In this document: one piece after another, positions 28,522 through 43,400 of the stretch
How positions within the stretch are numbered: position 1 is the stretch's first letter
How the letters are laid out: each line of letters begins with the position of its first letter
Notes under the pieces: generated by a model
Told to the model about the DNA's origin: nothing
The model's input: only the letters and a program-made list of their open reading frames with translations
The model's database searches: none
Made by a program: the position numbers and the translations under genes
NCBI RefSeq assembly: GCF_040515995.1
Contig: NZ_CP159485.1
Span: 310,001-374,000, forward strand
Length of the DNA: 64,000 nt
Reading direction: 5' to 3'
Source: Proteinivorax hydrogeniformans
GTDB taxonomy: Bacteria > Bacillota > Proteinivoracia > Proteinivoracales > Proteinivoracaceae

Positions 28522-28610
28522 AGCTTATCAAGAATAGGGGAGAGAGTTAGCTCGTTGAACCTATGCCAACCTATTTTATAATAAGGTGGTTCTGCTAACA
28601 TCGATAAGAA
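28522..28610 (+). ncRNA. SAM riboswitch, variant of the SAM-I/SAM-IV clan
   Basis: P1 is formed by CTTATC (28524-28529) and GATAAG (28603-28608). Inside are GGGAGAGA, GCTC, TTGAACC, GCCAACC, then GGTTCTGCTAACA, which follow the SAM-I order (GAGGGA, GCCC, TGAAACCC, GGCAACC, GGTGCTAA) but depart from it in length and bases. A terminator of its own follows at 28625. I read it as a SAM-clan aptamer of a variant class; a decayed SAM-I copy is the alternative. Confidence 0.7.
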
Positions 28611-28624
28611 CGGATTAGTTTGTT

Positions 28625-28663
28625 AAAAAATCCTTCCTACATGATGTTAGGAAGGATTTTTTG
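28625..28663 (+). terminator. Terminator of the first SAM-type riboswitch
   Basis: AAAAAATCCTTCCTA and TAGGAAGGATTTTTT enclose an 8-nt loop. Strong intrinsic terminator 15 nt after the first aptamer. Confidence 0.85.
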
Positions 28664-28683
28664 TATTTAGAAAAACTTAATAT

Positions 28684-28789
28684 TTCTTATCAAGAGAGGT
28701 GGAGGGACTGGCCCTATGAAACCCGGCAACAGCCAGTTAAAACTGGAAATGTGCTAAATCCTACAGCTTTAAAGCTGAAAGATAAGAAG
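28684..28789 (+). ncRNA. SAM-I riboswitch (S-box)
   Basis: Canonical S-box order: TTCTTATCAAGAGAGGTGGA, GGGACTGGCCC, TGAAACCCGGCAAC, then GTGCTAAATCCTACAG and a closing GAAAGATAAGAA. It binds S-adenosylmethionine and normally stops transcription when SAM is plentiful. It is followed by its own terminator and then a methionine-type transporter gene, the expected regulon. Confidence 0.97.
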
Positions 28790-39295: not shown

Positions 39296-41212
39296 ATGAT
39301 ATTATCTGTACAAGAAAGAATATTATTGCTATTAAATAAGTTTTTTCAGGATTTAGTAGAACATAAGCTTAGTGAAAAGTATGGTGACAAGTGGTTTGAG
39401 CAATACTTAGTGCCCTATGTAACAGCTTATACACAAGATAGTAACAACAGGACTAATAAGAACTTCGAGAAGTATAATGCATTTTTGAACAAAAATAATG
39501 GGAATTATTCAAAAAAAGATATAGATGTTACTTTTGCTAGTGCACTATTACTGTACGATGATCAGCTTCAACTAGAATTTGAAAGTAATGAAAAAAATGC
39601 GTTAAATCAACTTAGAATTGCAAGAAATAATTATGGCCATGCCACCGATCTGACTCCTCTTCATAGAATGTCTCTTAATAGCAAAACCCTTATAGATCTG
39701 AAAAATGCTGTTTTAACGTTTGGCAAAGAATCTATTTCACCGGGCATGTTTGAGGAAATAGAAGAATTAGAGCAAGTTGTATTAAATCCTAATGCTGAGG
39801 CAAATGGGCATACAAGTGAAAAAGTAGAGGAGTCCATTTGTGACCAAGAATACAATAGAGCAGAAGATTTGTTAAAAAATGACAATTTAGAAGAAGCATA
39901 TGCCATTCATACTGAATTAGACTCTCAGGGGCATACTCCTTCGACTATACGTTTGGGAGATTTTTATCGTTTGGGTATTTATGTAAGTTCAGATATAGAT
40001 CGGTCTGTAGATTTGTATGAAAAAGCTAAAAAGCAAGGGGAATTATCTGTATCAGAGGTGATAGAGTCTTTAAAGGAATTAAAACAAAATAGCAAAGAAG
40101 CAGAAGAAGGAAAGTTAAACTCTCAGTTTAAACTAGGAATTGTCTATGAAGAAGGCAAGCTGGTTCCACAAGATAAAGAAAAAGCGTTATACTGGTACCA
40201 AAAAGCTCTTAGTCAAAAAAGTCTGCTGGCCCGCAATAGAGTTATTAGTCTTGCAGAATCAGGATACAAAAATGCCAAATACGTAGTGGCAGAAGCTTAT
40301 GAGCTAGGTCGAGGTGTAAAAAAAGACTTGGATAAAGCGTTAGTAGAATATGAAAAGATTTTATACGGGGACACTGAGGAAATAGCAGCCTTAGAAAAAG
40401 TAATTGCTCTATCGGACAGAAATGCCGAAAGTCAATATAATCTAGGGATTTACTATCATGACAAGAAAAATTATAAAGAAGCATATAAATATATAAAAAG
40501 ATCAGCAGAAAATGGTCACGCCAATGCTATGAATGCACTGGGATATTTATATAGCTACGGCCAAGGTGTAGAAAAAAAATTGGAGACGGCATTTAAGTGG
40601 ACTGAAAAAGCAGCTGAACAAGGATTAGTAAAAGCTCAAAGAAATCTTGGATTATTATATAAAAACGGCACAGGTGTCGAAAAAAATCTTAAAGCATCTT
40701 TTAATTGGTATAAAAGGGCGGCTGAACATGGGGATGGTAAATCCGAGAGGATATTAGGGCAATTTTACAAAAGAGGATATGGTGTAAAAAGAGATTACGA
40801 TATGGCTTTTGAATATTTTCAAAAAGCTGCCAATAGGGGAGATATAGTAGCGCAGTATGAGCTTGGGTTGTGCTACGGATTGGGACAGGGCACAAAAACA
40901 AATCATACAGAAGAAGTAAAGTGGTATAAAAAAGCAGCTAGTCAGAATAATTCTGATGCCCAACATAATTTAGGTCTATGCTATTGTTATGGGGATGGTG
41001 TTGACAAGGATTATAGCATGGCTTATAAGTGGTTTTTTAAAGCAGCAAAAGCAGAAAACCCTAGGGGCCTATATAAACTTGGAAATTGTTATGAGTTTGG
41101 TTATGGAACATATGTGGACAAAGAAGAAGCGTTTAAATGTTATAAAAAGTCTGCAGATTTAGGTTGGAAACCGGCTATAGAGAAGGTGTCCCCCAGAAAT
41201 GCAGATAAATAA
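39296..41212 (+). CDS. HEPN-like domain fused to Sel1 repeats
   Basis: 638 residues. The first ~125 look like a Swt1-type HEPN domain: helical, with RNNYGH (R110, H115), the RX4H motif of HEPN ribonucleases. After an acidic linker (about 155-185) come about ten Sel1/TPR-like repeats (from ~188 to the end) of the form A...LG.-Y..G.GV-.D...A..WY.KAA. Sel1 repeats bind proteins; HEPN domains often cleave RNA in defence or toxin systems. It stands alone, without an antitoxin candidate beside it. A sensor or defence effector is a reasonable guess, unproven. Confidence 0.72.
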   Translation: MILSVQERILLLLNKFFQDLVEHKLSEKYGDKWFEQYLVPYVTAYTQDSNNRTNKNFEKYNAFLNKNNGNYSKKDIDVTFASALLLYDDQLQLEFESNEKNALNQLRIARNNYGHATDLTPLHRMSLNSKTLIDLKNAVLTFGKESISPGMFEEIEELEQVVLNPNAEANGHTSEKVEESICDQEYNRAEDLLKNDNLEEAYAIHTELDSQGHTPSTIRLGDFYRLGIYVSSDIDRSVDLYEKAKKQGELSVSEVIESLKELKQNSKEAEEGKLNSQFKLGIVYEEGKLVPQDKEKALYWYQKALSQKSLLARNRVISLAESGYKNAKYVVAEAYELGRGVKKDLDKALVEYEKILYGDTEEIAALEKVIALSDRNAESQYNLGIYYHDKKNYKEAYKYIKRSAENGHANAMNALGYLYSYGQGVEKKLETAFKWTEKAAEQGLVKAQRNLGLLYKNGTGVEKNLKASFNWYKRAAEHGDGKSERILGQFYKRGYGVKRDYDMAFEYFQKAANRGDIVAQYELGLCYGLGQGTKTNHTEEVKWYKKAASQNNSDAQHNLGLCYCYGDGVDKDYSMAYKWFFKAAKAENPRGLYKLGNCYEFGYGTYVDKEEAFKCYKKSADLGWKPAIEKVSPRNADK

Positions 41213-41356
41213 ATGGGGGCAGCGGATTTGTAGTGGCACAAAGCCTGGTAAAATAGAGAATATTTATAGTATTCTTTTCATGAAGGATATTTGCCATTAA
41301 TATAGAATAAAAACAATATACATAATATTAAGTCAAAAGTTGGTGGAGGGGTTAAT

Positions 41357-42472
41357 TTGGAAAAGCTTCTTTATGAACTTAGAAGGTTAGATAAGATACC
41401 TAATGGTGCAGTTAGAGAATACGAAGAAAAAAAAGAGGATTTAATGGAGTATGTTAATTTAAAAATGGAAGCGCACCCCAAAATTGATCAGTATCTTGGC
41501 GAAAGTCCAAAAGAATTAATGTATAACAATAATAGAAATCATGTAGAGTTTATGACAAATGTATTTAAGTTTAATGATTTTGAAATGCTAGCAAGAGTGT
41601 TGCCAGGGATATACCGAAGTTATATGGCAAGAGATTTTTTGCCAGAATATTTTATTAAAAGCTTAGAGGCATGGCAAGAAGCAATTGGAAAAATCCTTAC
41701 CCCCTTGACTGCAAAGGCAATTACTCCTGTGTATGTAACTATGGGCAAACTTCACCAAGAGGTACTGCTGGCATCGAAAGATGAAGCAAATGTAGTGGGT
41801 TTTTCTGATAACAACTTCCCAAAAATCAAAGAGAGGTTTTTACACGCATTACTAGACGGAGACCATATAGAGTGTATGAATATAACAAAGGAGTTTCTTT
41901 TTATTCAAAAAAAAGATATAAAAAGGTTTTATCTGGGTATTTTACAGCCTGCTTTATATGAAATCGGTCGATTGTGGGAGTATGGGCAAATCTCAGTGGC
42001 GGAGGAGCACCTAGCTACAGCTATAGCAGGTAGAGTTATGGCTTCAGTATACAACAAATTTTATGTTTATGAAAAAGAAAAGGGAAAGGTAATTGTCACC
42101 TGTAGTCCTAATGAATTCCATGAAGTAGGAGGAAGAATGATAGCTGACGCTTTAGAATTTGATGGATGGGATGTACACTACATGGGTGCTAATGTTCCCA
42201 TTGAAGAGCTATTACTGAACATAGAAAAAATTTCCCCCAACATTCTAGCCATCTCAACAGCCATGCCTTTTAATTTAGATGCTACACAACATATAGTTGA
42301 AAGAGTACGCAAGGAATTTGGCGATACAGATTTAAAAATCATGGTTGGTGGTCTTGCCTTTGCCTACTCCCCAAATCTATGGGAGCAAATGGGAGCTGAC
42401 GGCTGGGGAGGGGATGTAGAGGAGGCCATTAAGCTAGCGAGAGGTTGGTGGGCTGATAATGAAAAAACTTAG
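41357..42472 (+). CDS. Cobalamin-binding sensor with CarH-type photoreceptor motifs
   Basis: 371 residues. Residues 1-150 are helical and unassigned. About 153-240 is a helical B12-cap domain with W207-x9-E217-H218 (LWEYGQISVAEEH), the Wx9EH motif that contacts the adenosyl face in CarH. About 243-365 is a B12-binding Rossmann domain with E253-F-H255-E-V-G258, the ExHxxG cobalt-ligand form also used by CarH. No DNA-binding or methyltransferase part is present. The stop overlaps the start of a diguanylate cyclase gene by 14 bp, so it is likely a light- or B12-responsive partner of that enzyme. TTG start after GGAGGGG. Confidence 0.82.
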   Translation: MEKLLYELRRLDKIPNGAVREYEEKKEDLMEYVNLKMEAHPKIDQYLGESPKELMYNNNRNHVEFMTNVFKFNDFEMLARVLPGIYRSYMARDFLPEYFIKSLEAWQEAIGKILTPLTAKAITPVYVTMGKLHQEVLLASKDEANVVGFSDNNFPKIKERFLHALLDGDHIECMNITKEFLFIQKKDIKRFYLGILQPALYEIGRLWEYGQISVAEEHLATAIAGRVMASVYNKFYVYEKEKGKVIVTCSPNEFHEVGGRMIADALEFDGWDVHYMGANVPIEELLLNIEKISPNILAISTAMPFNLDATQHIVERVRKEFGDTDLKIMVGGLAFAYSPNLWEQMGADGWGGDVEEAIKLARGWWADNEKT

Positions 42473-43400
42473 ACTAAAGAATTATAAGCATCAGGACATA
42501 CTTTTCGAGTATTTAGATGAGTTGTCTAGGCTCGCGGTGGTTTTAGTAGACCGCCAGTTAATTATTCAAGACTGCAACCAAGGTTTTTTAAAAATGGTTA
42601 ATCAAGTAGTAAAGCCTATTGGGCAAGAGTTTCAATCGTTTTTAAAGCAAAAAATCCCCACAGAAAAGCTGCCGATAAAAGGCAGAAAAGAACAAATAAA
42701 GAGGGAAACTAAAGTTGCGGAAAATTTATTTATATTTTTCAGCTGGACTATTTTGCATTTAGAAGAGGGCTATTTGATGGTGGGCGAAAAGCTTCCCTTA
42801 TATAGCTCTGACATTACAGAAAAGATGGCTACTATTAATGATGAATTAACTAATTTAACAAGGGAATTAACAAAAAAAACAATTGAATTAGAAAAAACTA
42901 ATGCTACGATTAAAGAACTCAGTAATACTGATGGATTAACAGGCGCTTTTAATCGTAGGTATATAAACGAAATGTTACCTGCTCTTGCGGAAACTTCTAA
43001 GGAAGTAGCAAAACCTTTATCTATTATTATGGCAGATATTGATACATTTAAAAAGATAAATGATAGCTATGGTCATTGTGTGGGTGATGATGTGTTGAAA
43101 GACTTTGTAAAAATACTAAAAGGTCGCAGTAGGAATAAGGATTTAGTAGCACGATATGGAGGAGAGGAATTTTTACTGGTGTTACCAGACACTGCCGAGG
43201 AAGAAGCTGGGAAAATAGCGGAAAGAATGAGAGAAGAGTTACAGAATTTTCAGTTTGATAAGCTTTCGGAAGTGGTGACGGCTAGCTTTGGCGTTGCTGA
43301 GTTGATGGCAAAAGAAAAAACTGAAAACTTTATTAAGCGGGCAGATGATGCTATGTATAAGGCAAAAATGGAAGGAAGAAATAAGGTGGTAGTGTCTTAA
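42459..43400 (+). CDS. Diguanylate cyclase (PAS-like/GGDEF)
   Basis: 313 residues. A small PAS-like N-terminus (about 10-110, LAVVLVDRQLIIQDCNQGFL), a coiled coil (about 122-152), then GGDEF from about 153 with NTDGLTGAFNRRY, ADIDTFKKINDSYGH and the active-site loop RYGGEEF, so catalysis is expected. It makes cyclic di-GMP. The overlap with the B12-sensor gene implies one functional unit, with the sensor probably controlling this enzyme. Confidence 0.9.
   Translation: MKKLRLKNYKHQDILFEYLDELSRLAVVLVDRQLIIQDCNQGFLKMVNQVVKPIGQEFQSFLKQKIPTEKLPIKGRKEQIKRETKVAENLFIFFSWTILHLEEGYLMVGEKLPLYSSDITEKMATINDELTNLTRELTKKTIELEKTNATIKELSNTDGLTGAFNRRYINEMLPALAETSKEVAKPLSIIMADIDTFKKINDSYGHCVGDDVLKDFVKILKGRSRNKDLVARYGGEEFLLVLPDTAEEEAGKIAERMREELQNFQFDKLSEVVTASFGVAELMAKEKTENFIKRADDAMYKAKMEGRNKVVVS

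Follow-up and report, generated by a model that had tools for sequence, protein, structure and literature searches.

CarH and LitR form tetramers in the dark, which fall apart in the light. A light signature of B12 domains has been formulated as GxxW/EH/GxxH/GxxxP (SignatureFinder; PMC11796333); tested proteins that carry it were photoactive and one without it was not, and CtMerR showed a structural change under anaerobic illumination (PMC11796333). Photocobilins have already been characterised too, one of them being fused to a diguanylate cyclase (DGC). According to the report describing them (PMC10979010), photocobilin groups carry the adenosylcobalamin (AdoCbl) domain at either terminus; in the DGC-fused AbDPcob, AdoCbl in the dark lowers cyclase activity relative to the apo form and light raises it, with an increase in turnover of more than 10-fold; and isolated or standalone photocobilins, whose function is called unclear, act on a DGC in trans in vitro, besides regulation in cis. 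The first-pass annotation of the present locus had presented a sensor gene linked to a DGC gene as a candidate for an undescribed signalling system, which is too strong, since the AbDPcob fusion and the standalone photocobilins already tie B12 photoreception to a DGC. A literature search retrieved no paper describing the two-gene sensor-cyclase form, and the two-gene variant with exchangeable outputs is new within the photocobilin field.

This gene pair is located in the window, i.e. the whole stretch of 64,000 nucleotides that was analysed, and has the following layout (coordinates are positions in the window):
41345..41351, + strand: ribosome-binding site GGAGGGG, 5 nt upstream of the TTG start (read from the sequence)
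41357..42472, + strand: sensor gene with TTG start, 371 aa, N-terminal globin followed by a CarH-type B12-binding domain
42459..42472, + strand: overlap of the sensor and cyclase genes, 14 nt
42459..43400, + strand: DGC gene, 313 aa
43443..44768, + strand: PAS-PAS-GGDEF gene, 42 nt 3' of the DGC gene
The 14-bp overlap given at first pass was confirmed. The PAS-PAS-GGDEF gene possibly belongs to the same transcript as the pair; its protein lacks the coil motif described below, and the gene was not seen with the pair in other genomes. Sites resembling promoters or terminators near the pair were close to shuffled expectation and were left unused. Just 5' of the pair, a 638-aa protein (39296-41212) is encoded that has many Sel1 repeats behind a Swt1-like HEPN domain. 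The window also contains a tandem pair of SAM (S box) riboswitch aptamers (28522-28788, + strand).

The sensor comprises the following domains and motifs:
41357..41797, + strand: phycobiliprotein-like globin (photoglobin) domain, residues 1-147 (AF2, Foldseek, profile match, and alignment)
41828..42043, + strand: B12-binding four-helix bundle (PF02607), residues 158-229 (Pfam)
41975..42010, + strand: GxxW-x9-EH motif, W207 to H218 (alignment and motif check)
42083..42430, + strand: B12-binding Rossmann domain (PF02310), residues 243-358 (Pfam)
42113..42130, + strand: ExHxxG motif, residues 253-258, including the predicted lower cobalt ligand H255
Matches to the Pfam families B12-binding_2 (residues 158-229, E 1e-15) and B12-binding (residues 243-358, E 3.5e-19) were far beyond chance, and a motif check found both CarH-type marks, W207-x9-E217-H218 and E253-x-H255-x-x-G258, where the first-pass annotation had placed them (residues 207-218 and 253-258). 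Its statement that the sensor carries no DNA-binding domain was borne out as well, Pfam returning the B12 domains only, with no DNA-binding domain, MerR type included, and the N-terminus being a globin. A CarH-like transcription factor was excluded, as the sensor has no DNA-binding domain. The initial label of a CarH-type module applies to the B12 domain and is too narrow for the whole protein, which is a photocobilin-like sensor made up of a globin and a B12 domain. A PDB sequence search with the B12 part gave photocobilins as best matches (E 1.5e-22), CtMerR and CarH ranking lower. As to the light signature, GxxW (G204-x-x-W207), EH (E217H218), and GxxxP (G277-x3-P281) are present, and the place of GxxH is taken by N252-x-x-H255, where many relatives in the alignment vary too; to the Gly of GxxH, a main-chain contact has been ascribed (PMC11796333). 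Directly after W207, E208 stands where CarH has its bis-His partner H132 (comparison residue from PMC11796333). Given that B12-binding modules are common to corrinoid proteins such as MttC, the sensor might alternatively be a corrinoid carrier for a methyltransferase, with the cyclase as an incidental neighbour. This is very improbable, as no methyltransferase was found among the neighbouring genes examined, the W/EH motif is present, and the DGC or histidine kinase partner is constant (see below); a corrinoid methyltransfer protein was excluded on the basis of the neighbours and the motif set.

The sensor's own genome encodes two CobA-type adenosyltransferases, one in a BtuFCD-like importer cluster behind a cobalamin riboswitch and the other adjoining a second importer and a CbiB/CobD protein, whereby AdoCbl should be available; a PduO-type adenosyltransferase was not found in this genome. 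The organism is taken here to be an anaerobe, following the first-pass annotation, and Ilyobacter holds one of the closest named pairs. CarH needs O2 to reach its final light state, anaerobic light stopping at Co(I)/Co(II) (PMC10442372). Combined with an anaerobic host, this need makes AdoCbl or redox sensing a serious rival to light sensing; the pair would then report AdoCbl availability or the cobalt redox/oxygen state, with the apo, AdoCbl, and Co(II)/Co(III) forms setting the cyclase activity in the dark. The lowering of AbDPcob cyclase activity by AdoCbl binding alone, compared with the apo form (PMC10979010), the import and adenosylation of corrinoids by the own genome, and the absence of the bis-His residue from the sensor are in line with such a role. 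However, the sensor keeps the W/EH pocket seen in photoactive B12 domains, photoactivity went with the signature among the proteins tested, and the structure of CtMerR does change under anaerobic illumination (PMC11796333), so that a response to AdoCbl or redox state instead of light is considered rather unlikely. A second B12-binding protein of this genome (227 aa; L118, 4530-5210, - strand, about 260529-261209 of the genome) retains EEH and GEYHELG, lacks Wx9EH, and is followed by genes for a MacB/FtsX-like permease and an ABC ATPase, so that a link between a B12 domain and an ABC exporter may exist as well.

The N-terminal 150 residues or so of the sensor, listed at first pass as an unassigned helical domain, are a phycobiliprotein-like globin. 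When AF2 modelled the whole sensor from 4 sequences, the helical bundle came out poorly (pLDDT <50 at residues 207-239), so the N-terminus was folded separately, residues 1-147 alone giving a mean pLDDT of 90.9. The Foldseek matches of this model in the PDB were globins throughout, phycobiliproteins and smURFP among them and allophycocyanin and smURFP at the top, with TM-scores of 0.60-0.69 to most phycobiliproteins and of at most 0.74 (target length) to smURFP, and with E-values of at least 0.03, which are weak taken alone. Furthermore, a profile of 16 family N-termini matched the globin domain of SasPcob (8j2w, E 3.7e-6) and allophycocyanins, five family members gave weak matches to the Pfam family Phycobilisome, and the Azospirillum thermophilum homologue exceeded the gathering score of that family (37.2 bits versus 22.2). 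The globin fold, together with these independent sequence matches, indicates that the sensor is a photoglobin-B12 protein with a reversed domain order (globin, then B12 domain). This globin-first architecture is already recognised, as some photocobilin groups have an N-terminal and others a C-terminal AdoCbl domain (PMC10979010).

To locate the bilin site, SasPcob numbering was mapped via the profile alignment, with an offset of 6 set by His108, after which Trp296 fell on a Trp. N58 of the sensor occupies the position of the SasPcob bilin Asp270, and G84 that of Trp296. In the window's clade, the bilin-Asp position is aligned with Asn in L038, L039, L040, and Ilyobacter and with Lys in L006; in the sister clade, all aligned rows have Asp, mostly in an xxQD/CxED context that recalls the photoglobin motif CxQD (PMC10151467). 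No haem oxygenase of family PF01126 was found in the sensor's own genome, which, together with N58, makes bilin binding by the sensor unlikely; judging from these residues, the globin of the window's clade is probably bilin-free. AbDPcob, with His at the bilin-Asp position, is a poor biliverdin binder that is still switched by light (PMC10979010). A dual-chromophore photocobilin, the globin of which would bind biliverdin or another bilin and extend sensing to red light, would fit the closeness of the fold to allophycocyanin and smURFP, the Asp kept by relatives of the other clade, and the Azospirillum homologue that passes the Phycobilisome model, but is improbable with N58 and G84 at the Asp270 and Trp296 positions and with the PF01126 haem oxygenase missing from the genome.

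The cyclase partner is built up as follows:
42513..42803, + strand: PAS-like N-terminal domain, approximately residues 19-115 (weak PAS_8/PAS_9 matches)
42813..42914, + strand: coil with the family motif, reading INDELTNLTRELTKKTIEL, cyclase residues 119-152
42924..43385, + strand: GGDEF domain, residues 156-309 (Pfam, E 5.5e-44)
43131-43142, + strand: I-site RNKD (RxxD), cyclase residues 225-228
43158-43172, + strand: GGEEF, cyclase residues 234-238
The GGEEF sequence, the DxDxFKxxND metal/substrate motif, and the RxxD I-site are all retained, and the partner is an active-looking DGC, as had been noted at first pass. Matches of its N-terminus to PAS families are weak, the best E-value among four homologues being 0.00045 (PAS_9) and that of the window protein 0.062; a profile search against the PDB gave a PAS-type sensor-kinase chain, again weakly (E 0.031). 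Directly before the output domain lies a coil, LNNELxxxQRxLxKKNxEL, that is common to histidine kinase and DGC partners. It was found by pattern in 34 of 35 non-redundant adjacent partners, and the remaining one (L073) and L047 are one gene, with the coil reading MNNELITMHRQLAKNN; the negative control was small, consisting of two non-adjacent outputs, both without the motif. Coil-bearing outputs outside strict adjacency (L081 and L097) occur beside broken sensors. A profile of the PAS-like segment plus coil of window-type cyclases gave three strong matches in 398 genomes, all beside sensors, in addition to the coil-only DGC of L114, which adjoins a probable TnpB-type transposase gene, and a weak PAS-like match in an unrelated protein (L115). 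One 574-aa ORF (L096, 1477-3201) is a natural fusion that joins a B12 domain to the coil and a HisKA-HATPase and has no globin. At first pass, the N-terminal domain of the sensor had been named as a possible binder of the cyclase; the conserved candidate contact is the coil on the partner instead.

Related arrangements were seen as well. In L097 and L099 (G099), the sensor gene is interrupted, its N- and C-terminal parts lying ~2 kb apart, and the kinase partner is intact. In the Bacillus-like class, the parts can be divided further; in L082 (1396-3274), for instance, a globin, a B12 domain, and a protein with a PAS-like segment, a coil, and a STAS-like end, the latter recognised by eye and unconfirmed by Pfam, are encoded by three separate adjacent genes; this layout suggests that the input module can also have a stressosome-like output. 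In L098 (92-2046, - strand), a histidine kinase gene lies 83 nt behind that of a 211-aa B12 protein, which has the signature and no globin; the two possibly represent another trans pair.

The sensor and the pair were absent from the other genomes of the genus, family, and class that were examined (13 genomes, including the window's own). This ruled out conservation by descent in close relatives, so that evidence for conservation was taken from distant genomes. A contig scan with the single sensor protein returned only 3 loci, among which a Planctomycete pair (L007/L008) in other gene contexts. A survey of 398 genomes of the phylum, two class-centred scans (349 + 83 genomes), and a plasmid collection yielded, together with the window's own, 36 different sensors that are full-length and carry the B12 signature; they come from Bacillota, Fusobacteriota, and Pseudomonadota (33 sensors plus those of Ilyobacter polytropus pILYOP01, A. 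brasilense, and A. thermophilum, where the annotation splits the partner in two). Each of the 36 has an output gene directly behind it on its own strand, which encodes a DGC in 8 cases and a histidine kinase in 28; where measured, the spacing is -179 to +68 nt. A genome survey for the same gene pair, as proposed at first pass, thus found it conserved elsewhere. As many sensors stem from one family of large genomes, these represent fewer than 36 independent events. Two full-length relatives are partnerless, one having lost EH (L006) and the other both EH and the cobalt His (L040). In an unrooted tree, DGC-linked sensors lie on either side of the deepest branch and the histidine kinase-linked ones need one change, fine placement being unsure with several long branches. 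With a cyclase beside it in some bacteria and a histidine kinase in others, the sensor resembles a plug-in switch whose outputs can be exchanged. The sporadic occurrence of the pair in the window's own lineage, by which each neighbourhood could be accidental, would agree with mere co-transcription of sensor and cyclase without mutual action, but the linkage in 36/36 cases over deep divergence, the coil common to two output types, and the L096 fusion make this extremely improbable. The domains, motifs, gene linkage, partner exchange, shared coil, and fusion were all read from sequence.

The preferred reading, which is held to be reasonably likely, is that of a two-protein module in which an AdoCbl sensor, probably responsive to green light, controls a cyclase in trans via the coil, the globin probably being bilin-free. 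Speaking against it are NxxH in place of GxxH, E208 at the H132 position, the O2 requirement of CarH in view of an anaerobic host, and the absence of the pair from the relatives in the genus, family, and class that were examined. We infer B12 binding, a light response, contact and coupling between sensor and cyclase, and the direction of the effect along the following lines. The sensor would bind AdoCbl with H255 as the lower ligand and with W207, E217, and H218 around the adenosyl group. Loss of this group, most likely by green-light photolysis, would alter the shape or dimerisation of the sensor. By directly touching the PAS-like/coil segment immediately ahead of GGDEF, the sensor would pass this change on to the cyclase, the product of a separate gene, and so change the c-di-GMP output. 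The globin in the window's clade, probably no longer holding biliverdin, may be a structural or contact domain. More tentatively, strict anaerobes such as this organism and Ilyobacter may have discarded the bilin and may possess O2-free, AdoCbl-only photocobilin-like switches, a common coil code allowing interchangeable DGC and histidine kinase outputs (STAS-like ones in the Bacillus-like class) in a general trans-acting B12 input system. Dedicated partners are encoded beside standalone photocobilin-like sensors, with a candidate docking element common to two output types, and pairs are present in organisms suited to testing, namely Azospirillum, Ilyobacter, and probably Paenibacillus. A sharp question that arises is by what means a photochemical switch of the CarH type operates when both oxygen and bilin are absent. 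Green-light optogenetics would profit from a sensor and an output that are separable and rely on a common coil.

Compared with known systems, the sensor has the B12 domain motifs and the predicted base-off/His-on AdoCbl in common with CarH/LitR, whereas the MerR DNA-binding domain of the latter is missing and the second His ligand, H132, is replaced by E208. As in photoglobins and BBAG-2 globins, a globin is associated with a B12-binding domain; in the sister clade, xxQD or CxED stands for the photoglobin motif CxQD (PMC10151467), which the window's clade has lost (MYNN). SasPcob (PDB 8J2W/8J2X), the best PDB sequence match to the sensor (E 1.5e-22), is likewise a separate sensor without output domain that affects a DGC in trans in vitro; it differs in its reversed domain order and in Asp270/Trp296, which are N58/G84 in the window sensor, and, unlike the latter, it has no dedicated partner gene reported in the accessible part of PMC10979010. 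Similarly, AbDPcob, the Acidimicrobiaceae photocobilin-DGC fusion (PDB 8J2Y), combines a CarH-type B12 domain, a phycobiliprotein-like globin, and a GGDEF output, and its bilin Asp is also replaced (by His, with weak bilin binding; N58 in the window) (PMC10979010). However, AbDPcob is a single chain in which the B12 domain precedes the globin, whereas the window encodes a globin-first sensor and a separate cyclase with its own PAS-like domain and coil.
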